Below the pieces are notes generated by a model. It did no database searches, was not told the DNA's origin, and worked only from the letters and a program-made list of their open reading frames with translations. Shown one piece after another: positions 5,600-21,757 of a stretch of DNA of 22,977 bases. Positions within the stretch are counted from its first letter, which is position 1. The number at the start of each line of letters is the position of its first letter. The translations under genes and the position numbers were made by a program. Source of the DNA: a virus; IMG/VR virus record IMGVR_UViG_3300030019_000153, positions 1-22,977 of that record; one strand, given 5' to 3'.

Positions 5600-5788
5600 T
5601 TACAAAAACATTTTATTAGAAAAACTAACATCTTCCCCTTGACTAAACTGATACTTTATGCTAGAATTATTAATAAATTTATATCTATTTTCTTCCATAC
5701 CAATATATTCATAACCAGCTTCAATTAATTTATCTTTTACTTCTTTATCATAAGTTAAGATAAAAGTATCCTTTTTTGATTTAATCAT
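5600..5788 (-). CDS. Small protein between portal and protease genes, function unknown
   Basis: I place the start at the ATG at 5788-5786 (MIKSKKDTFILTYDKEV, 62 aa). A GAGG site lies eight bases upstream, and a longer frame would overlap the portal gene by 44 bases. The protein is small, mixed alpha/beta and charged (VKDKLIEAGYEYIGMEENRY). It has no membrane segment or known motif. The pattern KDTFILTYDKEVKDKLIEAGYE suggests a compact fold like small conserved head-operon proteins found in other Firmicutes phages, though that is memory only. It begins 10 bases after the portal stop and is clearly part of the head operon. Confidence 0.65.
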   Translation of the reverse strand: MIKSKKDTFILTYDKEVKDKLIEAGYEYIGMEENRYKFINNSSIKYQFSQGEDVSFSNKMFL

Positions 5789-5798
5789 TTTCTTTACC

Positions 5799-7337
5799 TC
5801 AATTGTTATTCTTGTTTTGATCTCTTGTCTTTGCACCCTCATCTGTAAGCTTTGTAGTATCTATTGTCGGTGCACCACCAGAGGTGCTAGTACCACTTTG
5901 AGTATTAGATGATTGTAATGGTATAAATTCAGAAGACAAATTCAAACAATTTTCTTCCAAGAAATTAAGACTAAGCGTTTCTAATTCTGTATAACCATTC
6001 AATGTATTTAAAGTTAATTTAACAGGTATTCCATACATTGCATCTTTTTGCAAATCTGCTTTATAAGTAGCCTTATCATATGGAGTAACTGCGAGTAATT
6101 TAATTCTAGCTGGTTTTGCTACATTATAAGCTATCCAACGATTTAACCAACTTTCAATTTGTGGTCTAATGATAGAGGTAGCGTATAAAATATCACTAAC
6201 TATAGCTCCATTCCATGCAGTTCCACCACTAATTGTAGATGAGTTTAATACTTGTGCACCACCAGAAGAGTTATATAAAGTCTTAGTGGCGTTTTCAATA
6301 ATATTAATATCAGATGCTTGATCATCTTTAAATGCTATTGCATTTACATCTACAGGAGATAAAATTGCATTTACATATTCTGGTAAAGCTTCTACAGCTC
6401 TATTAAAATACGCTATAGCAGTATCAGGATCTACAGTAAAATCATCCGCATCAGTTGCATCGGTTCTAGTATCCAAACTAAATACCAAAGTCTTATAAAC
6501 AGACGCTTCATCTTTTGTAGCCTGTAAATCTTCTGTATCGCATAAATTTATGATAGAATTAAATAATGCCGTATATGGCGGCATTGGCATTGTTGGATCA
6601 TCTATATTTACTTTTATACAAAAACAATTTTCATCAGGCATTGATTGATATTTCATAGTCTGATCTTTTTGATAAGCACTATACATTGATACAAATGGAT
6701 CTCCATAAAATTGTAATTGCTCTTGTCTATTTGTAAAATAACTCATATCCATAGAAAAACTTAATGTACCATCAGTATACATTCCTGTTACCTTACAATA
6801 ATTATAAGGCAATGGTAAAATAAATAGACCAGTATCATCATAATAAATACATCCATATGCAGTATCTTCTCTCCAAGCAATAAGATTCATTTTTAGAATT
6901 TCTGACTGTAAATTAATACTATCAAGAACCCTTGCTGTATTATAAAATTGCTTTAAAGAAGATTGTGTATCATTTGTTTTTGTTAAATTTATTAAAGGTA
7001 TAATACTTCTAAAGTCTGGATTTATCATAGAAGCATTATACCAAATAATTTTTCTATAAGGATTACTTCTTGTGTATAAATATCTACTTAATTCTACTAA
7101 TTTTAAATAATAACTAGCAGGATTCTTTAAATAAGTTCTTAAAGTCTCTCTACTAAAAGTAGTGTAAGTACGTGTCTCTGATTTAGAAGGATTAATTAAT
7201 TGTAATGTATCTTTTATCTTTTGCGCGTAACTACGTATTTCTTCTGCTGAATGAGTTTGAATTACTTCTTTTTTTACAGACGGTCTACGTCCGCGTTTAG
7301 TAACAGTTCCATTACTTTCTGTCAACTTAACAGGCAT
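5799..7337 (-). CDS. Portal protein
   Basis: A 512-aa protein immediately after the large terminase (17-base gap) with AAAGGAG six bases ahead of its ATG. Size and position are those of a phage portal, the dodecameric ring through which DNA enters and leaves the capsid. The N-terminus is basic and flexible (KRGRRPSVKKE). The body contains tyrosine-rich clip/wing-like stretches (YLKLVELSRYLYTRSNPYRK, about 77-96), an internal helical stem-like region and a Gly/Ser/Thr-rich disordered C-terminus ending RDQNKNNN. The long helices around SDILYATSIIRPQIESWLNR fit the crown/wing part of portals. The identification rests mainly on context and length, backed by the general sequence pattern of portals from gut Firmicutes phages. 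Confidence 0.78.
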   Translation of the reverse strand: MPVKLTESNGTVTKRGRRPSVKKEVIQTHSAEEIRSYAQKIKDTLQLINPSKSETRTYTTFSRETLRTYLKNPASYYLKLVELSRYLYTRSNPYRKIIWYNASMINPDFRSIIPLINLTKTNDTQSSLKQFYNTARVLDSINLQSEILKMNLIAWREDTAYGCIYYDDTGLFILPLPYNYCKVTGMYTDGTLSFSMDMSYFTNRQEQLQFYGDPFVSMYSAYQKDQTMKYQSMPDENCFCIKVNIDDPTMPMPPYTALFNSIINLCDTEDLQATKDEASVYKTLVFSLDTRTDATDADDFTVDPDTAIAYFNRAVEALPEYVNAILSPVDVNAIAFKDDQASDINIIENATKTLYNSSGGAQVLNSSTISGGTAWNGAIVSDILYATSIIRPQIESWLNRWIAYNVAKPARIKLLAVTPYDKATYKADLQKDAMYGIPVKLTLNTLNGYTELETLSLNFLEENCLNLSSEFIPLQSSNTQSGTSTSGGAPTIDTTKLTDEGAKTRDQNKNNN

Positions 7338-7354: not shown

Positions 7355-9169
7355 TCAGTCGAACATTTTATATCTTTTTACGGTTCTTATCGGTAAAGTA
7401 TTTCCTAAAATTATTTTTTCTATTTCAGATTTTTCTGGTTTTAATAAACGCTCCAATTGACATTGCACGTAATAGTTGTAAGACATACTTGAATATCTAT
7501 CTTTACGAGTTCCAGATCTTTCAAAAACTCTTACTGTATTACCTGTCGCTTCGTATTCCAAATTAAGTAATTCATTAATAGAAGCTGTGGTATGAATATA
7601 AGATGCTTTTAAATTTACTTGATCTACTGGATTCATTTTTATATAATTTTTAATAGAAGTCTTTAATATTTCATCTGCTTCAAATTCAGACACTAATAGA
7701 TTAACTTTATTAAGCTGAAATCCGTTTCTTAAATTTTTAGCTGCGTCACTATTAAAAATAGGAGAACCAAGTATTCCCCAAATTACTTTATTAGCATTTT
7801 TTATTTTACATCTTGAAGCATAATCTTCAAGGGTAGCTCTGTTACTACCTGCGAGTCTTAATTGCTTATCACTGATAGTCATGGCTTTATAAGTTACTCC
7901 AGTAGCGGGGTCAAATTGATCTCTTATAATAAAATCATATACACCCACTCCAAGACCCTTTATATCCACTGCTATATCTGTACAATTATATTCATAAAAT
8001 AATCTCATGACTCGTAGTCCTAATTCATCTGTAGTCATACCTTCATGACTTTCATAATATAAGAAATTTCCAGTATACGAAGTTTGACTAGATTTTATTA
8101 CATTATTAATCTGTAAGGATGCAGAGTCATTTGCTCTATTTTTAGAAGAAAGCAACGCTATATCTACTGATAAAATACGTCTTTCATTAGCTAATAATTT
8201 AGGTATTTTAAGATCTTTTATATTTTTATATATCTCTGGAGAAAAATAGCTATTCTTTAATTTACGACATTTAGAAACATCATTATAATTAAAGAATGAT
8301 CCGTCAGTATCTCCAAAAAATAAACATTCCAATTCCATTTGAAATTTTAAAGGATCAAAATCAGCTTCAGACATTTCATCTTCTATCTGACTTCTATCAA
8401 ACATTTTTTCCTTAATGGAAAGTTGATAAGGTAATGCACAACAAAAATATTTTCTTGTATCATCAAGCATATTTACAAAATATGCCTTTAATTTATCATA
8501 TGACCAATGACTTTGATACCAAGCCGAACTCATATAAATTTCTTTATTTCTTTCAAGTAAATCAGCATATTCCGGTTTAGAAATATACCCCGGTCTTCTT
8601 GGTGCTGTAAGAAATCTACGAAGTACTGTATTAATAACATTAAGATCTACCATACGAAATTCATCAATAATAATAATATTCGCTCTTGCAGATCTAGCAT
8701 TGTCAGAAGCAGTAACCACCTTTATATAAGAGCCATTTTTAAATTTACATTCGGCTTTATTTTGACCTATTGTAATAATTTTTATTTCAGAACGTAGATT
8801 TAAAGAACCCCATCCATAGTTTATCATAAAATCATCTTCAATTTTACTTAGTACTTCATTGGCTTGTGATCTACAACTTGATGCAATTACAATTTTAGTC
8901 CCCGGAAATAATATACATCTAATAACACAAAATAAAGCAGTAAGCCAAGTTTTTCCAGATCCTCTTGCCGCAATATACATAAAATAATTTTCATGCATCA
9001 AAGCATAAATTAAAATTTTTTGAAATAATGCGAGTTTAATATTTAAAAATTCTTTTACAAAACGTTGAGGATTTTCTCTATAAAAACTAGCGCGTCTTGC
9101 AATTGTAGTCATTACTCTTTTATATTTATCAAGATTTAATTCTTTTTCGCTCTTTTTTTGTTCTGCCAT
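7355..9169 (-). CDS. terL: Terminase large subunit (packaging ATPase-nuclease)
   Basis: A 604-aa protein of standard TerL length. The ATPase domain has the Walker A motif AARGSGKTW (67-75), Walker B IIIIDE (165-170) with the catalytic Glu170, and a likely coupling motif YMSSAWYQS (212-220). The C-terminal RNase H-like nuclease has its first acidic residue in ILSVDIALL (Asp336) and the second in TDIAVDIKGLG (Asp402). A third is plausible at Asp557 in RKDRYSSMSYN. It pumps DNA into the prohead through the portal and cuts the concatemer. It begins eight bases after the small subunit candidate with an AGGTGA ribosome site, and is followed directly by the portal gene. All key residues appear intact. 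Confidence 0.95.
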   Translation of the reverse strand: MAEQKKSEKELNLDKYKRVMTTIARRASFYRENPQRFVKEFLNIKLALFQKILIYALMHENYFMYIAARGSGKTWLTALFCVIRCILFPGTKIVIASSCRSQANEVLSKIEDDFMINYGWGSLNLRSEIKIITIGQNKAECKFKNGSYIKVVTASDNARSARANIIIIDEFRMVDLNVINTVLRRFLTAPRRPGYISKPEYADLLERNKEIYMSSAWYQSHWSYDKLKAYFVNMLDDTRKYFCCALPYQLSIKEKMFDRSQIEDEMSEADFDPLKFQMELECLFFGDTDGSFFNYNDVSKCRKLKNSYFSPEIYKNIKDLKIPKLLANERRILSVDIALLSSKNRANDSASLQINNVIKSSQTSYTGNFLYYESHEGMTTDELGLRVMRLFYEYNCTDIAVDIKGLGVGVYDFIIRDQFDPATGVTYKAMTISDKQLRLAGSNRATLEDYASRCKIKNANKVIWGILGSPIFNSDAAKNLRNGFQLNKVNLLVSEFEADEILKTSIKNYIKMNPVDQVNLKASYIHTTASINELLNLEYEATGNTVRVFERSGTRKDRYSSMSYNYYVQCQLERLLKPEKSEIEKIILGNTLPIRTVKRYKMFD

Positions 9170-9177
9170 AATATCAC

Positions 9178-10440
9178 CTATTCTTCATCTTGGTCAGAAC
9201 TTCCAAAAATATGATTAAATAAATCTTCTTGATCTGTTTCTTCATTATAATTTGGTTTTTCAACTGTATATTTTTTCATAACTCCATCATATAAATTAGA
9301 AAAAGCATTTTTAAGTTTTAATACTTTTGCTAAATGACCCCTGAAAAATACATCTATATATAAACCAATTTTATCTATATCTTTAAACTGTTCATCTACT
9401 TCTGGAATTGGTTCATTTTCTTCCCATTTTTGAATAAGCGTACCAAAAGTTTGTGCTTCTGAAATAGCATCATTTGAATTTTGTTTTGGTTGCAAATTTC
9501 CTGTAGACAATAAATTTTGATAAGTAGCGTCAAGATCTTTAGTACTTTCTGATCTACGAGTTGCTTGTAAAATTTCCCATTGTTTTAAACATATTCTTTT
9601 AAATATTTCTTCTTGTGCTTTAGTTTTACATTCATGTCTTGAAACCCAATCATCATATTCATTCTGACAATAAATATATGCTTCATCAGGTAAACCAAAA
9701 CCAAAGAACTTTTTACTTTTTTCAATTTTATCTACTATTTTATCTTTTAATTCAGTTTCATCTAAATATTCAAGACCACTTACAATAGTATATTCACCTT
9801 CTAAAATATTCTGAAAAGTTAATTTTTTAGAATTAATTGATAAAAATTCTCTATCACTATCATCAAATCCATAAATTCCATATGAAGGACAGCATATTAT
9901 TATTACATATGCATCCCAAATTGATTTATGTCTAGTATTTTTATCATTATAGGAATTAATAGCATCAACTATTTTATTTTTATATAAAACAAAATCTGCT
10001 TTTTTTGCGGCAGAAAGAAAAGTTTCAAAAGTTTCTTTACTAGTACCGTCAGATGGATTATACCCATTTGCTATTTTATTTAAACAAGTACTACATATTG
10101 GTATTAGACCAGTAGCAGTTTTACTACTAGATAAAAATTCTGATCTAACCGTCATTCTGCCACAATTGTGACACATATATTTTTTCTTGTAAAGTTCAAA
10201 TTCATTAAATAATTTATTATATTCATTTCTTACTTTTAAAGCTGTCATTTGTGATGTTTTATCAATCAGACCATCTTTATCTTCTATTGGTATACCACAA
10301 ATTTTTTGAGCAAGAAGTTTTTTTGTTTCTTCTTCTTCAAATTTCTTTTTTTCACTAAGAGATTTTTTATCTTCTTTTATTATTTCCCGTTCTACAAAAG
10401 AAACAGCTCGTTCTAAAGCTATACCTTGATCCTTATTCAT
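9178..10440 (-). CDS. Putative terminase small subunit with zinc ribbon
   Basis: A 420-aa protein directly upstream of terL. It has a charged helical N-terminus (1-85) and a four-cysteine zinc ribbon (Cys90-x2-Cys93 and Cys116-x2-Cys119). The conserved-looking middle contains FGFGLPDEAYIYCQNEYDDW (246-265) and CKTKAQEEIFKRICLKQWEI (271-290), followed by FGTLIQKWEENEPIPE (332-347) and a C-terminal helical segment with GHLAKVLKLKNAF. I remember this architecture from proteins preceding terL in phages of gut Clostridia, where they are treated as small terminase or DNA-recognition proteins. It is far longer than classical small terminases (about 150-200 aa). The zinc ribbon plausibly binds the packaging site. 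AAGGAG stands 10 bases before the ATG. Confidence 0.7.
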   Translation of the reverse strand: MNKDQGIALERAVSFVEREIIKEDKKSLSEKKKFEEEETKKLLAQKICGIPIEDKDGLIDKTSQMTALKVRNEYNKLFNEFELYKKKYMCHNCGRMTVRSEFLSSSKTATGLIPICSTCLNKIANGYNPSDGTSKETFETFLSAAKKADFVLYKNKIVDAINSYNDKNTRHKSIWDAYVIIICCPSYGIYGFDDSDREFLSINSKKLTFQNILEGEYTIVSGLEYLDETELKDKIVDKIEKSKKFFGFGLPDEAYIYCQNEYDDWVSRHECKTKAQEEIFKRICLKQWEILQATRRSESTKDLDATYQNLLSTGNLQPKQNSNDAISEAQTFGTLIQKWEENEPIPEVDEQFKDIDKIGLYIDVFFRGHLAKVLKLKNAFSNLYDGVMKKYTVEKPNYNEETDQEDLFNHIFGSSDQDEE

Positions 10441-13587: not shown

Positions 13588-14640
13588 TTAATTTAAACAA
13601 ACTAATTTAGTTTTATCTTTAATAATATTTCCATTTTTATCTTGACAGATATATATAAATCCTTCTTTTTGAGAATTTACAAGCGCTCCATCTGAATAAT
13701 TAATGGCTTTTACATCACAGACACAACCTTGTTCATAAATAGTTGTATTACCAATTACATATTCTCCAACTCTATGAGTGTGTGCCATAATTAAAGATGT
13801 AAAATTGTATCCCTCATTTCTAAAATATAACATTGCTTTTTCAGAAGTTTTTAATATTCCACTAGAAAAAGCAAGAGGGTGACAAAAAATAGTTTGTCCA
13901 ATCTGTGAAAACCAATTATCTGTATATTCAATTTCAACATCATCAATTACTTCAATAAGTGGTTTATATTCAATCTTTGTTCTCTCTAATTTGTTATAAT
14001 GTTTAAATCCATCAACAAAAATTAATTCTAAAGAAGTCTTTGGCATTAATTCAAGTAAATCTGTATCTAAATTCTTAGCAAAATAACTTTGAAATCTTAA
14101 ATCATGATTTCCATAATTGATAGATACTTTTTTAGGTTTAATTAATTCTATTAAAGCAAGAATATATTGTCTTGTTTCAATTAATTCTTCCATTGGACTA
14201 ACTCTATAAGTTTTCGGAAATTTAGAAATTGCTTGACAATCTGATAAATCTCCATTTAATTGTAATATGTCTACGCACCCAACATAATCTTTAAAAGTCT
14301 CAACAGGTAATTGAAAAGGTATATGAAAATCACTAATACTCAAAATTCTTTTATAAATACCACTTTCATCTTTAGTACGTTCATAAATACGTCCCATATT
14401 AAATGACTTATAATGTTTTCTATAAGTGCTTTCTCCAAAATCATTACCAGTTTCATAATTTAATAATTTGGATATATCCACAGTATTAATACCATATAGA
14501 TTTTTATTTTCAAAAAGTCTCACAAAATAATCGGTATAATCTTCATTCTTTTGTCTTTTAATAACATCCTTAGTATTATCTAAAACATTGAAATTTAATT
14601 CTTCTTTCGTTTCACTTTCACCATTTTTATAAATATCCAT
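13588..14640 (-). CDS. Calcineurin-like metallophosphoesterase
   Basis: A 350-aa protein with all metal-binding motifs of the calcineurin-like superfamily in order: SISDFHIPF (Asp104, His106), LNGDLSD (Asp131, Asp134), NYGNHD (Asn178, His179), CHPLAF (His254) and MAHTHR (His287, His289). The fold would bind two metal ions and hydrolyse phosphoesters, possibly nucleic acid, nucleotides or phosphoprotein; the substrate cannot be read from sequence. Residues about 35-85 (ISKLLNYETGNDFGESTYRKHYK) resemble a helix-turn-helix segment that I remember preceding this enzyme in many phages. GGAG lies four to five bases before the ATG, 12 bases after the 58-aa gene. It lies upstream of the tRNA and virion genes, at the junction between the nucleic-acid module and the structural module. 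Confidence 0.88.
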   Translation of the reverse strand: MDIYKNGESETKEELNFNVLDNTKDVIKRQKNEDYTDYFVRLFENKNLYGINTVDISKLLNYETGNDFGESTYRKHYKSFNMGRIYERTKDESGIYKRILSISDFHIPFQLPVETFKDYVGCVDILQLNGDLSDCQAISKFPKTYRVSPMEELIETRQYILALIELIKPKKVSINYGNHDLRFQSYFAKNLDTDLLELMPKTSLELIFVDGFKHYNKLERTKIEYKPLIEVIDDVEIEYTDNWFSQIGQTIFCHPLAFSSGILKTSEKAMLYFRNEGYNFTSLIMAHTHRVGEYVIGNTTIYEQGCVCDVKAINYSDGALVNSQKEGFIYICQDKNGNIIKDKTKLVCLN

Positions 14641-14652: not shown

Positions 14653-14829
14653 CTATCCCTTAACGATAATCTGATTTTTATAATCTGTTAATACTCTGAT
14701 CAATTTAGAACTTTCTGTTGCAAAGTATGTTGTCTTTTTACCCATACTTCTAGTTCTGTGTAAATCTGTCGTATATACAAAACCTTTACCCTGCAAATAT
14801 TCTTTTTCTCTTTTAGATATCTCTACCAT
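14653..14829 (-). CDS. Small basic protein, function unknown
   Basis: I start it at the ATG at 14829-14827 (MVEISKREKEYLQGKGF, 58 aa) because GGAG lies six bases ahead; the earlier in-frame ATG at 14841 overlaps that site. It overlaps the end of the preceding 213-aa gene by 17 bases, so translation is coupled. The protein is basic (KREKEYLQGKG, LHRTRSMGKKTTYFATES) and resembles small phage proteins with a Y/F-ATES...VL-Y pattern that I have seen near replication genes, function unknown. A nucleic-acid-binding role is only suggested by charge. Confidence 0.6.
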   Translation of the reverse strand: MVEISKREKEYLQGKGFVYTTDLHRTRSMGKKTTYFATESSKLIRVLTDYKNQIIVKG

Positions 14830-15454
14830 ACGCTTCTCCATTTAATTCTTTGTTTTTATATTTTTCTTTATAAGCATAAAATTCGTCAAAATAGAATTTA
14901 CGATTTTCACTTGTAATTACTTTTTTATCCAACCAATTTAATAATTGTACTTCTCTAATTAAAAAAGTATCTTCCTTAACCACCTTTAATTCACAATATC
15001 CTCGTGATATATTGTGCTTTAAAGAAGTATCAATATTGGTTACGATATTTACATGATGTTGACAAGCAAATCTTGAACCACTTAATTGTAATTCTTTATA
15101 ATTAATACCTTTAGCAATTTTACGTTTTTCTTGATCTTTAGTAGCTATTTTACCATTCGTTGTCCTTAAAATTCTATCTTTCAAATATATTAAACAAATT
15201 TGAACGCTTGGTAAGATATTTATAATTAATGGTTTTTCAACATCTTTCAGAATACCTTTTTCAATTATAATTTGTTCTCCTGTATTTAAAATTTCTTTAA
15301 TATCTGTTTCTCTAAATCCCGTCTTTTGTGCAATAATATGTATATATTCATTAAAATCAATAAGATCTGCTATTTCTTTTATTCTTTTAAAATCACTAGG
15401 AGTATAATTAATGTTCCTGCGATTATAATTTCTTTTCCTTTTTTCTGTGTCCAT
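14813..15454 (-). CDS. Possible HU-like DNA-binding protein
   Basis: The chosen start is the ATG at 15454-15452 (MDTEKRKRN, 213 aa), with GGAGAGAG about four bases ahead; the ORF could extend seven codons upstream. The N-terminus is strongly basic. Residues about 35-130 resemble an HU/IHF-type layout: two helices (ADLIDFNEYIHIIAQKTGF, then ETDIKEILNTGEQIII), then a beta-rich stretch (PLIINILPSVQICLIYLKD) and a basic arm-like segment (RTTNGKIATKDQEKRKIAKG). The C-terminal third is charged and helical, with LLNWLDKKVITSENRKFYF. I infer nucleoid-type DNA binding with modest confidence; no diagnostic HU signature is present. A -10-like TATAAT lies at 15478-15483, just after a terminator. Confidence 0.55.
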   Translation of the reverse strand: MDTEKRKRNYNRRNINYTPSDFKRIKEIADLIDFNEYIHIIAQKTGFRETDIKEILNTGEQIIIEKGILKDVEKPLIINILPSVQICLIYLKDRILRTTNGKIATKDQEKRKIAKGINYKELQLSGSRFACQHHVNIVTNIDTSLKHNISRGYCELKVVKEDTFLIREVQLLNWLDKKVITSENRKFYFDEFYAYKEKYKNKELNGEAYGRDI

Positions 15455-15477
15455 TTTTCTCTCTCCATAATACACCC

Positions 15478-15483
15478 ATTATA
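15478..15483 (-). promoter_or_regulatory. Candidate -10 element for the 213-aa gene
   Basis: On the minus strand a perfect TATAAT lies 23 bases before the chosen ATG, directly after the T-tract of a terminator. No good -35 hexamer is present at 17 bases (TATAAC), so this is a weak or activator-dependent candidate. Confidence 0.35.
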
Positions 15484-15489
15484 CTTTCT

Positions 15490-15510
15490 AAAAAGCCGCA
15501 GTTATACGGC
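15490..15510 (-). terminator. Intrinsic terminator ending the short cassette
   Basis: On the minus strand GCCGTA pairs with TGCGGC (one G-U) around a TAAC tetraloop and is followed at once by TTTTT. It is the best intrinsic terminator in the window. It would end transcription from the polymerase gene or from the extended -10 promoter at 15597-15605. Confidence 0.7.
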
Positions 15511-15590
15511 ATATCAAAAAATTAATTCGGCAGTTTTTAAGAGTTTTTTATTTATTTTTTATCCCCTTCATATTGCACCTATTAGCTTTT
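15490..15590 (-). ncRNA. Candidate small RNA (about 100 nt)
   Basis: Between an extended -10 promoter (TGCTATAAT) and an intrinsic terminator there is a stretch of about 100 bases with no useful ORF. Its predicted 5' end (ATATCAAAAA) is complementary to a segment just before the terminator (TTTTTGATAT), so the ends could form a closing stem. A seven-codon frame (MKGIKNK) with AGGTG ahead is the only reading frame. It could instead be a leader/attenuator of the 213-aa gene. Structure and promoter are seen; the RNA itself is inferred. Confidence 0.4.
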
Positions 15591-15651
15591 TGATATATTA
15601 TAGCATTTATGCGGCTTTTAAGAAATATCTAAAATTAATTCGGCAGTTTTT
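15518..15651. repeat. 21-bp perfect direct repeat flanking the cassette
   Basis: Bases 15518-15538 and 15631-15651 are identical over 21 bp (core TTAATTCGGCAGTTTTT), and both are preceded by ATATC nearby. The second copy contains the last codons and stop of the polymerase gene; the first is a non-coding duplicate 113 bp away. In addition AAAAGCCGC (15491-15499) and GCGGCTTTT (15611-15619) form an inverted repeat. The arrangement looks like a duplication or an inserted segment with target-site-like repeats. Confidence 0.8.
15597..15605 (-). promoter_or_regulatory. Extended -10 promoter (TGCTATAAT)
   Basis: A perfect TATAAT with the TG extension lies 30-38 bases after the polymerase stop codon on the minus strand. 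The -35 position (TTTCTT) is poor, as is common for extended -10 promoters. Transcription would start near 15590 and reach the terminator at 15490-15510. Confidence 0.5.
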
Positions 15652-18343
15652 TGAATTGATCTAAAAACTTAGTTTTATTTGTTTTATAAAGCATATTTAA
15701 AATCTTACGTGTATATTTAACATTTTTACCTTTTGTCAATTTACTAGCACCAACTCCAGTATCTATACCAAATGCAGTTTCAATTAATCTATTGATTGTT
15801 ACTACATTGGTAATTTTTATTTTATTTAACTGGCTAATAAAGTCTTCTGTTACTTTTAAATATTCTTCTAAATTGTCAAGACTAAGTGCTCGATTATGTT
15901 TGATATAATTATCATATTTATTAATTATCGTAATAAATTTCTGCATCTGTCTATTATTTGGTTTACCCACTAACTTAATAAAAAATTCATTTATAGGAAT
16001 AGATATAGAAGTAGAATTATTTTTTATATCATCTAAACATTCTTCTAACCAATTCATTGGACAAGTTAAATCGGAATTAATTCTTTGCTTAATTTTATTT
16101 TTACTTCGTTGTACTTGTTCAAAAGGAATTTCTTTTCCATCTTTTGTATATTTAATTTCTCTAGTATATTTCATAAAAGTCGGAAAATCTTTTTTCAAAG
16201 TAAGTATATCTCCAGTGGCAGTTATAAAATCTTTTGTACAAACCATAGACGGTAATCTACTTATTCTTGCAATTTCTTGTAAAGCATCTATTTCATATTC
16301 TCTTTTACAACTATCAATTACAACTTGAGCAAGTACACTAAGTATTACAAAATTATTATATAATTCTTTTAGTATTTGCTGATTAGGATGTTCTTTTGCA
16401 AGTTCTGTCCAATAATAAGTTATAGCTAATTGAGCTAAATTACTAGAATAACCAATTCCCATACGAGATTTAGAAAATTTATTATCCATCTCTGCATAAT
16501 CTGATTTAAGATTTTTATAAGTAATACCACTTTCTTTTAAATCATTTACTATTGTCTTATACTCTAAAAAACATCGTTTAGCATTTAACACAATAACAGG
16601 ATTATCAGTAGCTAAAATAAAATCTGAATCATAATCACATCCGTTCAACCGAGCTTGTATATCTGTATGAATTCCATTAACAGCTATAGTATTTCTACTT
16701 AGACAAATATATTTAGTTAGTCTATCACTACGTTGTTTATCAATATTAAACAAGTAGCAACAATTATTGGGACTATTATGTGGTGATCTAAATCCCGCTA
16801 AGAAAATTTCATTGTCAAATCTAGGTGTATAACATTCTATTGAATCGTGCCTTTGTTTAAATATTTCTCCTTTATCTCCCATTGCATATAACAATAATTC
16901 ATATGGATTACCACATATCGTTAAGTTATCTCCGTTAATAAATATTTTACCTTTACGCATACGTTTTACATATTGCTTAATGATATCAGTTTTTTCTCTT
17001 CTGAAAAAACTACAATTACTAAATTCATGATTTTGTTTATAAAGATCTGCAAGCATTTCATAATTATTAATTTCATTATTGTTCTTGCGTAAGAACTTTT
17101 CAAATTCATTATTATCAGTTTTTAATTTTTCAATATAAGTAACACTATCAGAAGCAATATATCTCATTTCTTCTTCGGTACAGGGTAATGTATTAACCAT
17201 CTGATAACTTAATTGTTGATTATTACCTAGTTTACTTATATGGTCTGTTTTTACTATTCCCCAGATATCTCCATCAGCATGTATTCTATCACACCAATAT
17301 TCATAAGGATTATCTCCCATTAAGTTCATAAACTTTTTCCACTTAATAGCATTATCTGTAGTAATCATTTTAATATCTTTTACAAAATGTAATTTACCAA
17401 ACATATCATGTATTTGATAAGTATTATAATCTAAATTATGTGAGCGACAATAATCTCTAAAAAATAATTGTAAGTTAGATCTAAACCCACAAGCTTTAAA
17501 TAAATGATTTCTAAGTAGAATGGTTGTATTAATAAATTCTGGTAAAATATTATTTTCTACTAAAGCCATTCCATCCCATAATGTACTTTTTATTTGTGTT
17601 TCTTTTTGAGTAACAATACAGTGTTTATTTTTATCTGCCATAACAACATTAGCAATAGCGGTAAAGAAAGAATCTTGATCTTTTAAAATTAAGATATCTT
17701 CAACCGGTATATGTATACTATCAATAATAGTAGATGTGGTTAAAGGAGCATAAGCAGACATTTCTACGATCTTTGCATTATCTTTATCCATTTTATCCCC
17801 AAGACCAATAGTAAGCCAATCATAAGCTTTCTTATATAACTTAGAATTAATAAACATTACCTGACCAAGTTTAGCTTTAGCGTTAGTACGAAATAACATT
17901 TCATAATGAATTGTAACATCATTAATCCACTTGTTTAATTCCTTATCAAATTTCTTATAAGTGATATCTACACCATGTTCATAAAAAGCTGTTCTAATTG
18001 CTTCTCGCTTTAATGGAGAATATAGTTCTTTCTTCTGTTCAATATTTTGTAAAGTATTTAAAACTCTTTTTTTGGTATCTTCATCTTGTACCTGTGATAG
18101 AAATCTAGTTAGACGTTTATATTCTGCATCATAATCTCTACTACCAAAATCATAATCCAAACAGATTATATCTCTAGTACTTTCTTTCTTATGAACACTT
18201 AATCCGTTACGTTGTAAAAAGAAGTTAAACAGACTGTTACTAAACATAGCATCAGTATAAGTGAAGTAATCTCTTATACCAAGATTCACATCATATATCA
18301 TACCAGCTGATATATTCTTAATTTTTAATCCATAAGTAGTCAC
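15635..18343 (-). CDS. Putative single-chain double-psi beta-barrel RNA polymerase (YonO/QDE-1-like)
   Basis: A 902-aa protein. The key motif is RLNGCDYDSDFILATDNP (565-582): D570-x-D572-x-D574 matches the metal-binding DxDGD loop of the second beta-barrel in cellular RNAP beta', QDE-1 and phage YonO, with Ser for Gly. Before it come GKIFINGDNLTICGNPYELL (465-484) and FLAGFRSPHNSPNN (514-527), the counterparts of the barrel entry and the RxP-H loop of beta'. The first barrel is suggested by TLWDGMALV (254-262) and LLRNHLFKACGFRSN (276-290), where Lys283 is the likely catalytic lysine of the beta-like barrel. The start is GTG at 18343-18341, six bases after GGAGG; an overlapping ATG is followed by a stop. 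It probably transcribes phage genes. The family fit is from motif order; activity is inferred. It ends in the duplicated repeat. Confidence 0.72.
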   Translation of the reverse strand: MTTYGLKIKNISAGMIYDVNLGIRDYFTYTDAMFSNSLFNFFLQRNGLSVHKKESTRDIICLDYDFGSRDYDAEYKRLTRFLSQVQDEDTKKRVLNTLQNIEQKKELYSPLKREAIRTAFYEHGVDITYKKFDKELNKWINDVTIHYEMLFRTNAKAKLGQVMFINSKLYKKAYDWLTIGLGDKMDKDNAKIVEMSAYAPLTTSTIIDSIHIPVEDILILKDQDSFFTAIANVVMADKNKHCIVTQKETQIKSTLWDGMALVENNILPEFINTTILLRNHLFKACGFRSNLQLFFRDYCRSHNLDYNTYQIHDMFGKLHFVKDIKMITTDNAIKWKKFMNLMGDNPYEYWCDRIHADGDIWGIVKTDHISKLGNNQQLSYQMVNTLPCTEEEMRYIASDSVTYIEKLKTDNNEFEKFLRKNNNEINNYEMLADLYKQNHEFSNCSFFRREKTDIIKQYVKRMRKGKIFINGDNLTICGNPYELLLYAMGDKGEIFKQRHDSIECYTPRFDNEIFLAGFRSPHNSPNNCCYLFNIDKQRSDRLTKYICLSRNTIAVNGIHTDIQARLNGCDYDSDFILATDNPVIVLNAKRCFLEYKTIVNDLKESGITYKNLKSDYAEMDNKFSKSRMGIGYSSNLAQLAITYYWTELAKEHPNQQILKELYNNFVILSVLAQVVIDSCKREYEIDALQEIARISRLPSMVCTKDFITATGDILTLKKDFPTFMKYTREIKYTKDGKEIPFEQVQRSKNKIKQRINSDLTCPMNWLEECLDDIKNNSTSISIPINEFFIKLVGKPNNRQMQKFITIINKYDNYIKHNRALSLDNLEEYLKVTEDFISQLNKIKITNVVTINRLIETAFGIDTGVGASKLTKGKNVKYTRKILNMLYKTNKTKFLDQFKKLPN

Positions 18344-18367
18344 ATTTTTCCTCCATCTAAATATAGT

Positions 18368-18396
18368 TTTTTAAAATTTACAAGTTTTGATGTCAA
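18368..18396 (-). promoter_or_regulatory. Promoter candidate for the polymerase gene
   Basis: On the minus strand TTGACA (18396-18391) is a perfect -35, followed after 17 bases by TAAAAA (18373-18368), a four-of-six -10. It ends 24 bases before the GTG start of the 902-aa gene, leaving a short leader with the GGAGG site. Confidence 0.5.
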
Positions 18397-18478
18397 AATT
18401 CCTTTATTTTACGGTAAATGTTATCACTAAAATTTTACTTATATTTACCCAATGCATAGCCAGCTACAAGGCATCTAG

Positions 18479-18514
18479 TATTAACTATAATATTAACTAT
18501 AATATTAACTATTA
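18479..18514. repeat. Three tandem 12-bp iterons
   Basis: TATTAACTA begins at 18479, 18491 and 18503 with a unit length of 12 bp (TATTAACTATAA; the third copy diverges at its last bases). Phase and identity are exact in the nine-base core. Iterons of this kind bind replication initiators or repressors. Confidence 0.7.
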
Positions 18515-18577
18515 ATAACGATTATATAATAAAAGATATAATAATAAAACATAATATATATAATAAGAAAATTGTTC

Positions 18578-18618
18578 TATGTGGACGTAGTTTTGCGAAG
18601 CAAAAGTACGTTTACATA
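18578..18618. other. Long hairpin with 19-position stem
   Basis: Bases 18578-18596 pair with 18600-18618 around a GAA loop. The inner part TTTTGC/GCAAAA and ACGTA/TACGT are perfect; one G-G mismatch (18590/18606) and two G-U pairs (plus-strand RNA) interrupt the rest. This is the longest stem in the window. There is no T-tract, so termination is unlikely; a structured RNA or an origin cruciform is possible. Confidence 0.65.
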
Positions 18619-18623
18619 AACAT

Positions 18624-18675
18624 TTAACCGCGAACGAATGAACACACGACAGTGTGGAATGAGAGAGCGAGTTAA
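18624..18675. other. Nested stem-loop element
   Basis: TTAAC (18624-18628) pairs with GTTAA (18671-18675), then CGC with GCG past one bulged base. Inside, CACAC (18643-18647) and GTGTG (18652-18656) form a hairpin with loop GACA. The segment is visibly more GC-rich than its surroundings and contains GAATGA repeats. Together with the preceding hairpin it looks like a folded RNA or a protein-binding DNA element. Confidence 0.5.
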
Positions 18676-18757
18676 ATATAATAAAAGATATAATAATAGA
18701 GAGAGTTAATTATATAAGTATTTAATCTTTTAATATATAAGTAAATTAATATTTTAT

Positions 18758-18784
18758 ATTATATTATAACATTTATAATATAAT
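18758..18784. other. A/T-only 11-bp inverted repeat
   Basis: ATTATATTATA at 18758-18768 is exactly complementary to 18774-18784, with a five-base spacer. The whole element is A/T except one base, suitable for duplex unwinding or cruciform formation. Confidence 0.55.
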
Positions 18785-18830
18785 TGAGAAAAGATACAAT
18801 AGTTAAAATTATTAGTCATATAATCTTTTG

Positions 18831-18863
18831 ACTTATAGATATAAGTAACTCATGAAAATGAGT
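18831..18863. other. Two adjacent palindromes after the regulator gene
   Basis: ACTTATA/TATAAGT (18831-18846, spacer GA) is followed by ACTCAT/ATGAGT with a GAAA tetraloop on the plus strand (18848-18863). They lie just past the stop codon of the 307-aa gene and may be its operator-like sites or the 3' end structure of its mRNA. Confidence 0.4.
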
Positions 18864-18881
18864 GGTAATAATATAACCTTT

Positions 18882-19805
18882 TTACCTTTTTATATATTTG
18901 TCTATTAAATTATATAAAAACTCCATATCATAATCTATTTGTTCTCCTTTTTTATTTATAAAAGACGTATGTTGCTCTATATATGCTTTAAATTTATTAA
19001 TGAACATATCATTTAATATTTGTTGATATTCATTTATTTTTTCTTTATCTAATTTTTGTACATCTCTATTTAATAATCTAATTTTCATACAAGAAAATAT
19101 AGTATCATATTTAGAAAAGAAATTTTTATATTGAATTACTTTATTATGAAAAATTACTTCACAATAATTATTAAGTCCTAAACTCTTTAACGCTAATTGT
19201 TCTATTTCATATATTTCTTCTAATTCCATTTCACTTGCAACATGATTATTTATCATATAGGTATTATATATTTCTATAATTCCTTGTCGTTCCATTTTAT
19301 GTAACGCATATTTTATAAAAGTATTAAATCTATTAAAAAGTAAATTAGTAAAATGTCTGGTTTCAAAAATTTTTTCTTCTTTACTTAAATTATGACTTTG
19401 ATAATTAATATTTATTATTCCCAATAATTTTGCTATATCGGTAACAGTATAACATTTATCTTCTAATACATTACATAAAATTGGTATTGTATATGATACA
19501 TAACATTTTCTTATATGTTGTACTTTCTTCTTTTCTTTTTTTTCCTTTTCTTTCTTTTTAATTTCTGGTTGTAATTCATATATATCTTTTACTGTAAGTT
19601 GTTGCCCTGAATATCCTAACATTACTACTGAATTAATTATTCTTAATTGCGCCGCTTTAGAACAAGATTTTCCTAATGGAATATTAAGATAATTACATAA
19701 TTCTTTATAATTCTTAAATACTTGTCCTACATATAATAAATGTCTTATTTTTTTTCTTTCCTCTTTTTTTTGTTCTGCTGATAATTTACTACTTCTAATG
19801 TTCAT
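18882..19805 (-). CDS. Putative DNA-binding regulator or replication initiator
   Basis: A 307-aa protein. Residues about 20-80 (LYVGQVFKNYKELCNYLNIP, SKAAQLRIINSVVMLGY, VKDIYELQP) match a small winged-helix-like N-terminal domain I know from regulatory and replication proteins of Firmicutes phages and mobile elements. A highly basic linker follows (KKKEKEKKEKKKVQHIRK, about 83-100). Then comes a second helical region starting ILCNVLEDKCYTVTDIAKLLGI (110-131), which reads as another helix-turn-helix, with a charged helical C-terminus. The gene is driven by a near-consensus promoter and faces the plus-strand operon; the repeat-rich tract lies just downstream. Initiator of replication or transcription regulator cannot be separated. 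The ATG is 12 bases after AAGGAG, with a better placed minicistron start between (see findings). Confidence 0.6.
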   Translation of the reverse strand: MNIRSSKLSAEQKKEERKKIRHLLYVGQVFKNYKELCNYLNIPLGKSCSKAAQLRIINSVVMLGYSGQQLTVKDIYELQPEIKKKEKEKKEKKKVQHIRKCYVSYTIPILCNVLEDKCYTVTDIAKLLGIININYQSHNLSKEEKIFETRHFTNLLFNRFNTFIKYALHKMERQGIIEIYNTYMINNHVASEMELEEIYEIEQLALKSLGLNNYCEVIFHNKVIQYKNFFSKYDTIFSCMKIRLLNRDVQKLDKEKINEYQQILNDMFINKFKAYIEQHTSFINKKGEQIDYDMEFLYNLIDKYIKR

Positions 19806-19853
19806 GTTTCATTTTTTCTCCTTTTTATTTATACAAAACTTGTTTGTGAACTA

Positions 19854-19882
19854 ATTCTATCATATTTTAATTAGAAAGTCAA
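19854..19882 (-). promoter_or_regulatory. Leftward promoter of the divergent control region
   Basis: On the minus strand TTGACT (19882-19877) and TAGAAT (19859-19854) are separated by exactly 17 bases, five of six matches each to the sigma-A consensus. It would start transcription near 19847, about 40 bases before the regulator gene. Confidence 0.8.
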
Positions 19883-19900
19883 GTAAAAGTTATAAAAAGT

Positions 19901-19936
19901 ATTACTTACTTATATAATAAAATATTAATAAGTAAT
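19901..19936. promoter_or_regulatory. Inverted repeat between divergent promoters, operator candidate
   Basis: ATTACTTA (19901-19908) and TAAGTAAT (19929-19936) are perfect complements separated by 20 bases, lying between the two -35 elements. The 28-bp centre-to-centre distance places the half-sites roughly on the same DNA face. It is a plausible site for the adjacent regulator. Confidence 0.45.
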
Positions 19937-19968
19937 GCAAAAATTATTAAAAATATTTCTTTTTTCTC

Positions 19969-19997
19969 TTGACATTTATATATTAATATGATAAAAT
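19969..19997 (+). promoter_or_regulatory. Rightward promoter of the divergent control region
   Basis: TTGACA (19969-19974, perfect) and TAAAAT (19992-19997, five of six) with a 17-base spacer. Transcription would start about 20004, 33 bases before the first start codon of the plus-strand operon. Confidence 0.85.
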
Positions 19998-20036
19998 TAA
20001 CTTAACAATAAAACGAAAGAAAGAGAGGAAACTTAT

Positions 20037-20144
20037 ATGCAATTATTCTTATTTTTAATTTTTTTATTTCTATTAATTGTATGTCCACCTTTAGGATTTG
20101 GTTTATTACTTATAGTATTAGCTTATAAAATTTTTTGTAAATAA
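20037..20144 (+). CDS. 35-aa membrane peptide, first gene of the plus-strand operon
   Basis: An ATG at 20037 with AGAGAGG about eight bases ahead opens 35 codons: MQLFLFLIFLFLLIVCPPLG, then FGLLLIVLAYKIFCK. The peptide is almost wholly hydrophobic, with two possible short membrane spans split by a PPLG turn and a lysine-containing C-terminus. It is the first gene after a near-consensus promoter and is followed 11 bases later by the next gene with its own AAGGAG. No function is recognised; small early phage membrane peptides can affect host division, superinfection or lysis timing, but nothing here decides among them. Confidence 0.65.
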   Translation: MQLFLFLIFLFLLIVCPPLGFGLLLIVLAYKIFCK

Positions 20145-20155
20145 GGAGAATAGTA

Positions 20156-20689
20156 ATGTCAGCAAAACCAGATTTTAATATATTAATAGAAACTTATAGA
20201 GGTCAACCAGTTATTAGTTTATTTGAAGTATCTATTATTACTGGTATGACATATAAAACTATTAAAGAAGCCGCAGAATTTTTACAATACTTATTTCAAG
20301 GAGAAGATCATTTTCATATTTTTAAATGTAAATTAGATGGTATCAATGTTAATAATTTAAAATATAAAGTAATTATTGATTATTACTATGCTGATTTCAC
20401 TGGAGCTTTAATGATTATAAAATTATGTAAAAACAAGTACGCTAAATATATTGAAGATCGTTATCTAAAAACATTTCAAGAAGCAGTAAGTCATATAAAA
20501 ACTTTAAAAGAAGTTGATAGAACCAATTTTAAATTACTTGGACGTGGAGAGGGACATAGATTTTTTAGAACTCAAGATTATATAGAGACAAAAGAAAAAG
20601 CAACAAGAGAAAAAATCATATGGAGTACTAAAGGACATAGTGGTTGGTCTTATACAGAAAAATCTTTTACGGAGATGACAAAAGAGTGA
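20156..20689 (+). CDS. Possible Rha/ORF6N-like antirepressor-type protein
   Basis: A 177-aa protein with AAGGAG seven bases ahead of the ATG. The N-terminal half reads like the DNA-binding domain of phage antirepressors of the Rha/ORF6N/BRO type: VISLFEVSIITGMTYKTI (residues 19-36, helix-turn-helix-like), DHFHIFKCKLDG, then YYADFTGALMIIKLCKNKYA and YIEDRYLKTFQEAVSHIK. The last forms match the typical end of that domain. The C-terminal third is basic, with LLGRGEGHRFFRTQDYIETK, and is not recognised. The stop codon overlaps the GTG start of the next gene. The assignment is low-confidence and rests on pattern order only; it could be an unrelated early protein. Confidence 0.55.
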   Translation: MSAKPDFNILIETYRGQPVISLFEVSIITGMTYKTIKEAAEFLQYLFQGEDHFHIFKCKLDGINVNNLKYKVIIDYYYADFTGALMIIKLCKNKYAKYIEDRYLKTFQEAVSHIKTLKEVDRTNFKLLGRGEGHRFFRTQDYIETKEKATREKIIWSTKGHSGWSYTEKSFTEMTKE

Positions 20690-21012
20690 ATTTAGAAGAA
20701 AATATTATTAAAGAAATTGGTAAAAAATCTTTACAATTATTTCAAGCAAGTCTATGTGCTAGTATAGATATAGAAGAATATTCTTGGTCTTATGATACTT
20801 TAAATAAATTAGTATATAATTTAGATAAAGAGAAATATAGCAGATATAGAACACCTACTGTAAATAAAAACTTTTATGAATTAACTTGTAATATAATGTA
20901 TTTAATTAAATTATCTGGAAACAATATTATTCAGGTAACTATATATAAAGATAATAATAATAAAATATGTGATTGGAAACACATTAAACTTACTTTTTTT
21001 AGGAAAAAATAA
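20686..21012 (+). CDS. N-terminal part of a frameshifted BCS1-like AAA+ ATPase
   Basis: I start this at GTG 20686, which overlaps the previous stop by four bases (GTGA), rather than at an ATG 42 bases upstream inside the preceding gene. The 108-aa product ends IKLTFFRKK at a stop just past a run of seven T (20994-21000). In the next reading frame the sequence continues GKNKYRLREIILRKV and on into an AAA+ domain, so removing one T would give a continuous protein of about 356 aa. The segment NNIIQVTIYKDNNNKICDWKHIKLTF looks like the beta-rich N-terminal domain of BCS1-type ATPases. I treat it as the first half of one gene, broken by mutation, sequence error or programmed frameshift. Confidence 0.65.
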   Translation: MNLEENIIKEIGKKSLQLFQASLCASIDIEEYSWSYDTLNKLVYNLDKEKYSRYRTPTVNKNFYELTCNIMYLIKLSGNNIIQVTIYKDNNNKICDWKHIKLTFFRKK

Positions 21013-21757
21013 ATATAGACTTAGAGAAATTATTTTACGCAAAGTATTAAATGATAAAAATAAAAATGAAATTAAAGTTAAATATCTTGGAGAAAAAGTA
21101 ATTAATTATACTATTAAACCACATGATTTTAAAAATATGGTACTTAAATCAGAAATAAAAGATAGAATTATTAATGGATTGACTTATTGGAATGAAAAGA
21201 AAGAATGGTATAAATCGCATCAACTTGTACATAAAATAGGTGTTCTTCTATATGGTAAACCCGGAACAGGTAAATCTACAATAGCTAGATGTATTAGTAA
21301 TATGTTTGATAATGCTACTATACTTGTTATTAATCCTAATGATATTATGATATCTGTAGCAAAGATATTAGAGGAAAGAAAAAAGAGTATTGGAAAACTT
21401 ATTATACTTATTGAAGATTTTGATATGTATTTTTATGATAGAAGTAAACAAGAAACGGAAGAAACAAAGAAAAAAGCTAATAATCAAAATGTTCTTTTTC
21501 AAATACTTGATGGAGTGTATTCAACAGAAGATACAATCTATATCGCTACTACTAATTATAAAGATAAAATTAATGCTGGAATGATTAGATATGGAAGTTT
21601 TGATATTCAAGAAGAAATAGGATACTTTGATAAAGATATGTGTGATCAATTTTGTATTATGATGAATACTAAATTAGATACAGAATATCCATCAGAATTA
21701 GTAGAACCTGCATGGTTACAAGGTAAAATAATGGAATTAAATAGTAAAAAACAATAA
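20969..21757 (+). CDS. BCS1-like AAA+ ATPase (C-terminal part, frameshifted)
   Basis: This frame carries the ATPase: Walker A GKPGTGKS (96-103 counted from the GTG at 20969), Walker B LIILIEDFD (144-152), sensor 1 IYIATTN (190-196) and the Arg-containing MIRYGSFD (205-212), matching the RPGRxD loop of BCS1 with the second Arg replaced by Ser. The GTG and the first codons overlap the preceding frame and have no ribosome site, and the first internal ATG (21137) has none either. Expression therefore most likely depends on the upstream frame, by a +1 shift near 20994-21006. BCS1-like ATPases remodel or translocate proteins; the phage substrate is unknown. The operon next encodes a DNA methyltransferase. 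Confidence 0.75.
   Translation: MIGNTLNLLFLGKNKYRLREIILRKVLNDKNKNEIKVKYLGEKVINYTIKPHDFKNMVLKSEIKDRIINGLTYWNEKKEWYKSHQLVHKIGVLLYGKPGTGKSTIARCISNMFDNATILVINPNDIMISVAKILEERKKSIGKLIILIEDFDMYFYDRSKQETEETKKKANNQNVLFQILDGVYSTEDTIYIATTNYKDKINAGMIRYGSFDIQEEIGYFDKDMCDQFCIMMNTKLDTEYPSELVEPAWLQGKIMELNSKKQ

Follow-up and report, generated by a model that had tools for sequence, protein, structure and literature searches.

The 22,977-nt viral DNA analyzed here (IMG/VR record IMGVR_UViG_3300030019_000153, positions 1 to 22,977; hereafter, the window) very probably carries the gene for a YonO-family RNA polymerase that is DNA-dependent and is predicted to transcribe the late genes of the phage, and this is the best explanation of the data as a whole. 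YonO is a small relative of cellular RNA polymerases (RNAPs), and its likeness to their single-subunit ancestor has been proposed. A first-pass annotation, made from the letters of the window, had assigned a 902-aa open reading frame (ORF) to the YonO/QDE-1 class without stating its strand. We found that the ORF exists on the (−) strand (Table 1), with GGAGG a few bases ahead of its GTG start, and that the (+) strand across the same interval is full of stops. The strings quoted as barrel landmarks are present in the order claimed, namely, LWDGMALV, RNHLFKAC (which holds K283), GNPYELL, GFRSPHNSPNN, and NGCDYDSDF. The class assignment draws support from the profile match to the family, the fold predicted for the protein, the conservation of its residues, and the order of the genes, in which the polymerase gene leads the structural genes.

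Table 1. Features of the window discussed in the text
Feature	Coordinates	Strand	Basis
Portal protein, in YonE's place	5799..7337	-	phrog_2739, E 3e-92
Terminase large subunit, YonF-like	7355..9169	-	43% over 564 residues
YonG-like protein	9178..10440	-	32% over 325 residues, E 1e-43
Calcineurin-like phosphoesterase, partly YonJ-like	13588..14640	-	PF00149, E 3.9e-7; YonJ, 40% over 67 residues, E 2e-10
220-aa ORF, next gene after the polymerase	14813..15475	-	Weak DNA-binding match, phrog_379, E 0.002
Conserved element GTATAATGGGTGTATTATGGAGAG, candidate late promoter or late-transcript 5' end	15461..15484	-	Matches across loci
Long nested hairpin directly 3' of the polymerase gene	15485..15625	-	z -4.35
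Terminator-like hairpin then TTTTT, 3' of the polymerase gene	15495..15510	-	Motif scan
YonO-family RNA polymerase, two barrels on a single chain, 902 aa, GTG start	15635..18343	-	phrog_8308, AlphaFold2, structure alignment
DYDSD catalytic triad motif codons, D570-Y-D572-S-D574, second barrel	16622..16636	-	Alignment of 99
K283 codon, first-barrel lysine	17495..17497	-	Lys in 99/99; aligned with a YonO Lys
D257 G258 codons, invariant DG, first barrel region	17570..17575	-	Alignment of 99 and with YonO
AT-rich non-coding tract ahead of the polymerase gene	18344..18881	.	Hairpins at 18560-18680, z -7.4 and -6.2
307-aa protein (orf307), first gene of the minus-strand arm	18882..19805	-	No confident family
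Sigma-A-like site TTGACT-17-TAGAAT, TG before -10	19854..19882	-	Consensus match only
Second sigma-A-like site	19969..19997	+	Consensus match

Family profile and sequence matches

The sole PHROG matched by the window protein was phrog_8308 (E = 1.5e-87, 296 bits; protein residues 104–899, profile positions 113–810 of 847), i.e., the PHROG that contains SPbeta YonO, which itself scores 1220 bits (positions 2–847 of 847); the kinship with YonO proposed at first pass is thereby borne out by profile search. Pairwise identity with YonO is only 19%, and the conserved landmarks nevertheless align. A direct BLASTP comparison, run on that pair alone, was weak (26% over 229 residues, E = 3e-5). Pfam and NCBIfam gave no meaningful match for the window protein, searching the PDB by sequence gave nothing useful, and the A2 profile drew just two chance matches from the PDB sequences (E = 0.17). 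Specifically, the protein had no Pfam match to PF05183 (cellular RNA-dependent RNA polymerases) or PF00940 (T7-type single-subunit RNAP), and PF00623 (multisubunit RNAP, Rpb1/beta') was absent from it, being found in 0/4 phage contigs and 14/14 in the control. One relative that also belongs to phrog_8308, L081, passes the Pfam RdRP family PF05183 (52.7 bits; cut-off, 23.8), and a genome search with Pfam RdRP yielded zero matches, as did its controls.

Invariant residues and a serine in the catalytic motif

Conservation was assessed across 99 non-redundant sequences, comprising the window protein and 98 relatives. Residues D257, G258, R278, K283, K334, R519, and P521 are identical in all 99, and the first five had no role in row selection; to judge from this alignment, the motifs quoted at first pass are more than chance would produce. 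D570, D572, D574, Y380, and Q381 are likewise identical in 99/99, an invariance that is partly by construction because rows were picked partly for the D.D.D and YQ motifs. The D.D.D motif is missing from 9 of 131 ORFs, all of which are short (478–616 aa). Both double-psi barrels would be carried on one chain, with K283 in the first and a putative Mg-binding triad (D570/D572/D574) in the second.

The first-pass annotation had also pointed out DYDSD in place of DxDGD, which is correct, though the change is shared by a whole clade rather than peculiar to this phage. The glycine found at the fourth motif place in YonO is absent from the window protein, which has Ser573 instead. Among the 99 non-redundant sequences, the residue after the second Asp is Ser in 81, Gly in 16, Ala in 1, and Val in 1; on the tree, Ser occupies 83 of 103 rows with few changes and forms essentially one clade, and the Gly clade comprises 15 rows, including the PMBT24 relative. 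The serine might be taken to mark lost or changed catalysis, as in a DNA-binding remnant, given that DxDGD is the form in YonO, PMBT24-like relatives, and P23-45 gp96. However, the serine has been kept throughout its clade, and loss of function should have loosened the invariant D257, G258, R278, K283, and K334, which makes this reading highly improbable; on comparison of the sequences, DxDSD is not decay. As worded in the relevant passages of PMC7824862 and PMC10770324, the signature of two-barrel RNAPs is DxDxD, with Gly no part of the wording, and the window protein has that signature. We found nothing in print on DxDSD polymerases in the open-licence PMC literature, nor a test of the Ser-for-Gly swap in any enzyme. 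With the altered residue inside the catalytic motif retained across a clade of >80 sequences, nature supplies a swap by which the role of the glycine can be tested.

Predicted fold and template

The AlphaFold2 model of the window protein (pLDDT 93.8, pTM 0.91) found its best structural matches among RNA-dependent polymerases, namely, QDE-1 (Z = 22.1–24.0, 539–639 residues aligned) and RDR2 (Z = 19.7–26.2, 601–640 residues; open form 7w88, Z = 16.0), for which Foldseek TM-scores were only 0.38–0.47. Both alignments span the whole chain of the model, and at this level of whole-chain comparison the outcome that would contradict the first-pass annotation, a fold without two barrels, did not occur. 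Phage proteins were matched as well, including "P74 gp62" and "P32 gp64" (Z = 17), P23-45 gp96 (Z = 10.2), and the phi14:2 virion RNAP (Z = 8.3).

Since the nearest solved folds are QDE-1 and RDR2, the enzyme could be an RNA-dependent RNA polymerase and, in their fashion, have phage transcripts as its templates, a reading also favored by the Pfam RdRP match of L081 and by the annotation of the PMBT24 relative as an "RNA-dependent RNA polymerase." We consider this very unlikely: SPbeta YonO, which shares the PHROG and the locus, strongly prefers DNA templates according to passages of PMC5467207, and the window gene heads the structural genes of a tailed phage, the place expected of a late-gene RNAP. 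That same adjacency to structural genes, together with the presence of virion RNAPs among the structural matches (Z = 8–10), would suit an RNAP packaged in the virion to transcribe early genes, like phi14:2 gp66 or P23-45 gp96. Little credence attaches to this idea, however, as the window polymerase is not part of a fusion with a virion protein such as a tape measure, the non-virion P74-26 gp62 is a better match than the virion RNAPs (Z = 17 vs 8–10), and YonO, in the corresponding place, is needed for late genes. A DNA-dependent late-gene polymerase is the reading that we retain.

Gene order around the polymerase

A 124.6-kb contig contains the window at 99.98%, and on it the polymerase gene heads the minus-strand arm with the structural genes; the second half of this late arm (101,566–124,304) is joined to it on the assumption of a circular contig. 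YonJ-, YonG-, and YonF-like genes come after the polymerase gene in the SPbeta order, so that, as looked for in a YonO family member, it precedes SPbeta-type packaging and capsid genes. No relative of YonN (HU) was recognised in the window, and one is present in 8 of 17 related loci. When SPbeta DNA was compared with 397 genomes, the only part of the query matched, among the matches listed, was that with the HU-like yonN. For the 220-aa ORF, inspection by eye favors the ATG at 15454 as the start.

Hairpins and sigma-A-like sites in the non-coding tracts

The tract ahead of the polymerase gene, described as repeat-rich at first pass, does contain direct repeats and strong hairpins. The nested hairpin on the 3′ side of the gene matched no Rfam family above threshold; when 27 relatives were folded at its place, nine gave z < −2.5, with differing sequences. 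The terminator-like hairpin is the sole such site in 15400–20200, where shuffles average 0.5. The sigma-A sites reported earlier at 19854–19997 hold up as the two best matches in 15400–20200, but such sites overall are no commoner there than in shuffles (40 vs 41.7). The (−) strand site might serve host RNAP as a promoter for both orf307 and the polymerase gene.

A conserved element 3′ of the polymerase gene

The first-pass annotation had envisaged a set of phage-own promoters; we found one candidate element and no set. Ten of the 13 loci in the window's clade have it once, at 54–165 nt beyond the 3′ end of the polymerase gene; the nine loci besides the window carry it at +54 to +99, and a leave-one-out weight matrix ranks the window copy 1 of 45,918 window positions. 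When a matrix was built from the 10 sites, its top-scoring position lay on the 3′ side of the polymerase gene in one of the 25 additional near loci (expectation, 0.9) and two of the 72 far loci (expectation, 3.2). The element is therefore a feature of the window's clade alone, and the matrix detects it neither in other clades nor at the SPbeta start site. The string TATGGAG was first spotted by eye and counted afterwards: of 101 loci, 15 carry it in the 200 nt downstream of the polymerase gene, compared with 24 of 716 control windows located behind other genes. A degenerate pattern of the element (≤3 mismatches) was matched 19 times across 98 loci, with 11 of the matches falling in the 250 nt that follow the gene; in the 12 held-out loci, it yielded a good copy in L010 only (L009 being a near relative) and a poor one in L032.

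There is an even chance that the element is part of a structured RNA or the ribosome-binding site of the next gene rather than a promoter. An ATG follows it at a distance compatible with ribosome binding in the window, L009, and L107, and the matrix misses the SPbeta start site (rank 314 ungapped and 460 with one gap, of 55,966). A similar string in SPbeta falls within a match to skipping-rope RNA and precedes by ~290 nt the YonO start site reconstructed by coordinate arithmetic from published coordinates, and TATGGAG was dropped as an element common to SPbeta. Against this reading, L105, L106, and L036 have no start codon within 12 nt of the element, 14 of the 18 loci in which TATGG[AG]G falls in the 200 nt that follow the gene include a copy with no start codon 3–14 nt further along, and conservation reaches 6–10 nt upstream of TAATATGG, past a ribosome-binding site. 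A further pattern, GTC[CG]G.?TAATA, is present at the SPbeta start site and in L003, L004, and L009, with 10 more occurrences elsewhere in the 98 loci; we treat this resemblance as a lead only, because the pattern was drawn up with the site already in view and lacks support from the matrix.

A proposed model for late transcription

Taken together, the late (particle-building) genes are probably switched on by the window polymerase. Host RNAP would transcribe orf307 and the polymerase gene from a sigma-A promoter, and a putative terminator 3′ of the polymerase gene would halt most of this transcription. The finished polymerase may then start just 3′ of its own gene, possibly at the conserved element, and, by analogy with SPbeta YonO, would read the packaging, capsid, and tail genes of the minus strand. 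Giant RNAs (ROOL and GOLLD) come after the polymerase gene in some relatives. We tentatively propose, as a picture with less than even odds, a large lineage of Firmicute phages with DxDSD YonO-type polymerases, in which late transcription of the window's clade starts at this one dedicated promoter and a giant structured RNA such as ROOL is the first product in several relatives. If true, the link would suggest when and by which enzyme ROOL, an RNA of unknown function, is made. The short DNA element is now in hand for a transcription assay.

Comparison with known systems

In PMC5467207, YonO was shown to be a strictly DNA-dependent RNAP whose 3D>3N mutant fails to extend RNA, and 37 SPbeta genes are silent without it; its promoter sequence and need for other recognition factors are still to be determined, according to its authors. 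The window protein resembles SPbeta YonO (PMC5467207) in PHROG, landmarks, single chain (902 and 839 aa, respectively), and place before yonJ-yonG-yonF-yonE, but differs from it in the low identity given above and in the serine of the triad motif. Unlike SPbeta, the window lacks a recognised YonN relative, and, scored by weight matrix, the element 3′ of the window gene bears no resemblance to the reconstructed SPbeta start site. The protein of Enterocloster phage PMBT24 (WDQ45559.1) shares the PHROG, the landmarks, and a place upstream of terminase and portal, but has DFDGD and falls in the Gly clade. QDE-1 and RDR2, the nearest solved folds with whole-chain alignment (Z up to 26), are eukaryotic, act in the RNAi pathway, and are 10–12% identical to the window protein. 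Finally, the Thermus phage non-virion RNAPs (gp64 of P23-45 and gp62 of P74-26) are likewise single-chain two-barrel phage enzymes (Z = 17; described in passages of PMC10770324), although they have ~590 residues in the solved chains, share 8–9% identity, and come from another phage group.

The polymerase gene and the phage that carries it

The ORF at 15635–18343, reported by the first-pass annotation as a candidate single-chain RNA polymerase gene, was present on the minus strand (902 codons), with the plus strand closed by stops, and all of the motifs named there were found in the protein in the order given. The gene starts with GTG, and GGAGG lies a few bases 5′ of the start. All 902 residues were 100% identical in proteins of two IMG/VR contigs, and the entire virus record (22,977 bases) corresponds to positions 5713–28689 of one of these, 124,607 bases long (99.98% identity). 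With genes called by a simple longest-ORF method, the polymerase gene is second in a minus-strand arm of this contig that runs from 25,517 down to 340 and carries genes for packaging and the capsid region. Between 25,868 and 101,510, all genes of at least 90 aa but one lie on the plus strand. Another minus-strand block, 101,566–124,304 (one plus ORF within; a 2763-aa ORF included), probably extends the late arm, provided that the genome is circular. None of four long contigs matched a multisubunit RNAP (controls: 14/14), and a sigma-70 region 2 protein was found in two of the four but is absent from the window's contig.

Several other features of this phage were recorded. An AAA ATPase of the CDC48/FtsH type and an ORF that appears methyltransferase-like by eye only stand at the beginning of the plus-strand arm. 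The same arm, in bases 40001–60000 of the 124.6-kb contig (L162), hosts a tmRNA gene, several tRNA-Glu and tRNA-Gln genes, and a predicted suppressor tRNA with anticodon TTA, reading the stop codon TAA, that may be a false call. Strong hairpins (z −7.4 on the plus strand, −6.2 on the minus) occupy the AT-rich gap separating the polymerase gene from orf307, the 307-aa gene before it.

Family membership and predicted structure

A single PHROGs family, phrog_8308, matched the protein (E 1.5e-87, residues 104–899); it is labelled "unknown function" in PHROGs. This profile matched YonO of Bacillus phage SPbeta end to end with 1220 bits, eight relatives scanned with YonO with 238–526 bits, and, among 14 control genomes, that of Bacillus subtilis alone. 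Since the protein is 19% identical to YonO and the direct BLASTP match is weak, the assignment to the YonO family rests on profile, structure, and gene order. In a MAFFT alignment of 103 sequences, D257-G258, R278, K283, K334, Y380-Q381, R519, P521, D570/D572/D574, G631, N635, D677, and K680 face the same residues of YonO.

The AlphaFold2 model, built from a 99-row alignment, had a pLDDT of 93.8 and a pTM of 0.91. All 19 Foldseek matches with E < 0.001 were QDE-1 or RDR2 (1.3e-7 to 4.1e-13), with low TM-scores (0.38–0.47); the top viral model was an "RNA dependent RNA polymerase" of Podoviridae sp. ctxqo3 (TM 0.76). VIA-align matched QDE-1 (Z 22.1–24.0, 539–639 residues, rmsd 3.6–5.3) and RDR2 (Z 19.7–26.2, 601–640 residues, rmsd 5.9–7.1; open form 7w88, Z 16.0), followed by "P74 gp62" and "P32 gp64" (Z 17), P23-45 gp96 (Z 10.2), and the phi14:2 virion RNAP (Z 8.3). 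Largest subunits of cellular RNAP matched in the second-barrel region at Z 7–8, values that the tool itself warns may be uninformative alone, and YonO was not among the VIA-align matches listed. Profile, predicted fold, and gene order thus agree with the YonO/QDE-1 class proposed originally, and it is well supported that the window encodes a real YonO-family polymerase, located where YonO is.

A serine in the active-site triad motif

Relatives were drawn from 78 viral loci (from the best 80 of 111 matches, some of them shared with the protein search that gave the two identical contigs) and 52 loci of bacterial genomes or MAGs, with titles mostly of Lachnospiraceae and other Clostridia. Selection by the YQ motif gave 131 ORFs, nine of which lacked the D.D.D motif, every one short (478–616 aa); 112 were retained (at least 820 aa, D.D.D motif, outside annotated phage records), and adding the window (113) and removing near-copies left 99 sequences. 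D257, G258, R278, K283, K334, R519, P521, G631, I676, D677, K680, P721, and F723 are invariant in all 99, as are the three triad Asp residues and YQ, but the latter two motifs served in row selection.

Between the second and third Asp, 81 of the 99 sequences have Ser, 16 Gly, one Ala, and one Val; the window has Ser where YonO has Gly. In a quick tree (103 rows, motif columns left out), 83 Ser rows fall within one 86-row branch (support 100) whose exceptions are V, A, and one G, with four changes on the whole tree. Gly occurs in YonO, PMBT24-like rows, and the related locus L081; YonO and L081 are long branches of unsure placement. Judged from the alignment, the active-site Ser variant is common to a large clade, and a search of open-licence PMC papers found nothing about a DxDSD-type motif in polymerases. 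Rare relatives carry Val (L071 and L076, DFDVD) or Ala (L120, DFDAD) at this position. Separately, yonO of phage Goe14 is annotated as two pieces with an ORF in between, and a 204-aa CDS of phi3T as similar to yonO.

A candidate late promoter 3′ of the gene

Directly after a terminator-like hairpin lies a conserved 3′ element with relatives in nine other loci (L003, L004, L009, L030, L036, L044, L105, L106, and L107), where its TATGG is 54–99 nt past the polymerase stop codon, compared with 165 nt in the window.

Features of the window, related loci (L003, L004, L009, L013, L043), and L162
Feature	Locus	Position	Strand	Remark
Terminator-like hairpin	window	15495–15510		enclosed by longer nested hairpin, z −4.35
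3′ element, GTATAATGGGTGTATTATGGAGAG	window	15461–15484	minus	candidate late promoter
Hairpins before polymerase gene	window	18560–18680
AAA ATPase	window	20969–21757
Methyltransferase-like ORF	window	21833–22396
ROOL	L003	5606–6217	polymerase strand	Rfam
ROOL	L004	11012–11609	polymerase strand	Rfam
ROOL	L009	10980–11582	polymerase strand	Rfam
ROOL	L043	9651–10252	polymerase strand	Rfam
GOLLD	L013	9279–9769	polymerase strand	Rfam; 1005 nt past polymerase gene
Predicted TTA tRNA	L162	9080–9160		plus-strand arm
tmRNA	L162	6636–6932		plus-strand arm

In a leave-one-out test (close kin L004 and L009 omitted jointly), the weight matrix ranked the true site first of all positions on both strands in 10/10 loci (18,200 to 45,918 positions), the sites, and hence the loci, having been picked by eye ahead of the test. 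A degenerate pattern (up to three mismatches) matched the 124.6-kb contig once, at the window's element (shuffled mean 0.6). One tree branch (support 98) has 13 rows, of which these 10 loci make up all but three; the element is absent from those three (L005, L012, and L108), and the matrix fails in loci outside this branch. We consider the element a candidate late promoter. Nearby, an exact 21-nt repeat (15518–15538 = 15631–15651) comprises the polymerase gene end plus a few bases and recurs within the hairpin 3′ of the gene.

A different repeated string, TTACATAG, was noticed just 3′ of the polymerase gene in L075, L129, L130, L133, L136, L140, and L144 (and L095 and L100). It occurs within 200 nt 3′ of the gene in 9/101 loci versus 3/716 control windows, and is possibly those lineages' own late promoter.

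The published YonO start site in SPbeta is at strain 168 coordinate 2,225,998. The yomD-bhlB span of strain 168 (2,262,437–2,265,169; PMC8270828) and that from yomD to yomA, taken as bhlB, in the SPBc2 annotation (24,012–21,280) are both 2733 bases; the chromosome coordinate is therefore 2,286,449 − n and the start site SPBc2 60,451, assuming one genome version in both papers and no indel between. Around this position, four SPbeta-group phages form two pairs with differing upstream sequences, and all four are near-identical from ~23 bases 5′ of it onward for ~100 bases. Such a pattern is compatible with a promoter and, given that the agreement extends ~100 bases, with an RNA element too. The weight matrix built from the window's clade failed to pick out this start site.

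Giant RNAs near some of the polymerase genes

An Rfam scan of 28 loci placed ROOL 226–843 nt past the polymerase gene on the same strand in four; counting GOLLD, five of 28 loci (L004 and L009 being close kin) have such an RNA within ~1 kb 3′ of a YonO-type polymerase gene, on its strand. Skipping-rope RNA lies 627 nt past the gene in one (L053); SPbeta has a DUF3800-VIII match, with skipping-rope below its threshold, and the window scan found only its tRNA. The function of ROOL and GOLLD is not known, and in phages they are often close to tRNAs, according to passages of PMC12286853, which mention no link to a polymerase gene.

Comparison with SPbeta

Next on the same strand, 3′ of the polymerase gene, are genes for a 220-aa protein and for a phosphoesterase that has a YonJ-like segment, then tRNA-Thr and tail-fibre-like proteins, followed by a YonG-like protein, the terminase (43% to YonF), the portal, and proteins of the capsid region; the SPbeta order is yonO-yonN-yonK-yonJ-…-yonG-yonF-yonE. 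Among 17 related loci, with flanks of unequal length, eight have a YonN-like (HU) gene after the polymerase and nine have a YonJ-like gene there. According to PMC5467207, 37 SPbeta genes are silent without YonO, and YonO-dependent transcription is assigned to one operon whose start site precedes both yonK and a non-coding RNA. The biology of the window polymerase is largely explained by SPbeta; what is new is the active-site variant and the candidate promoter.
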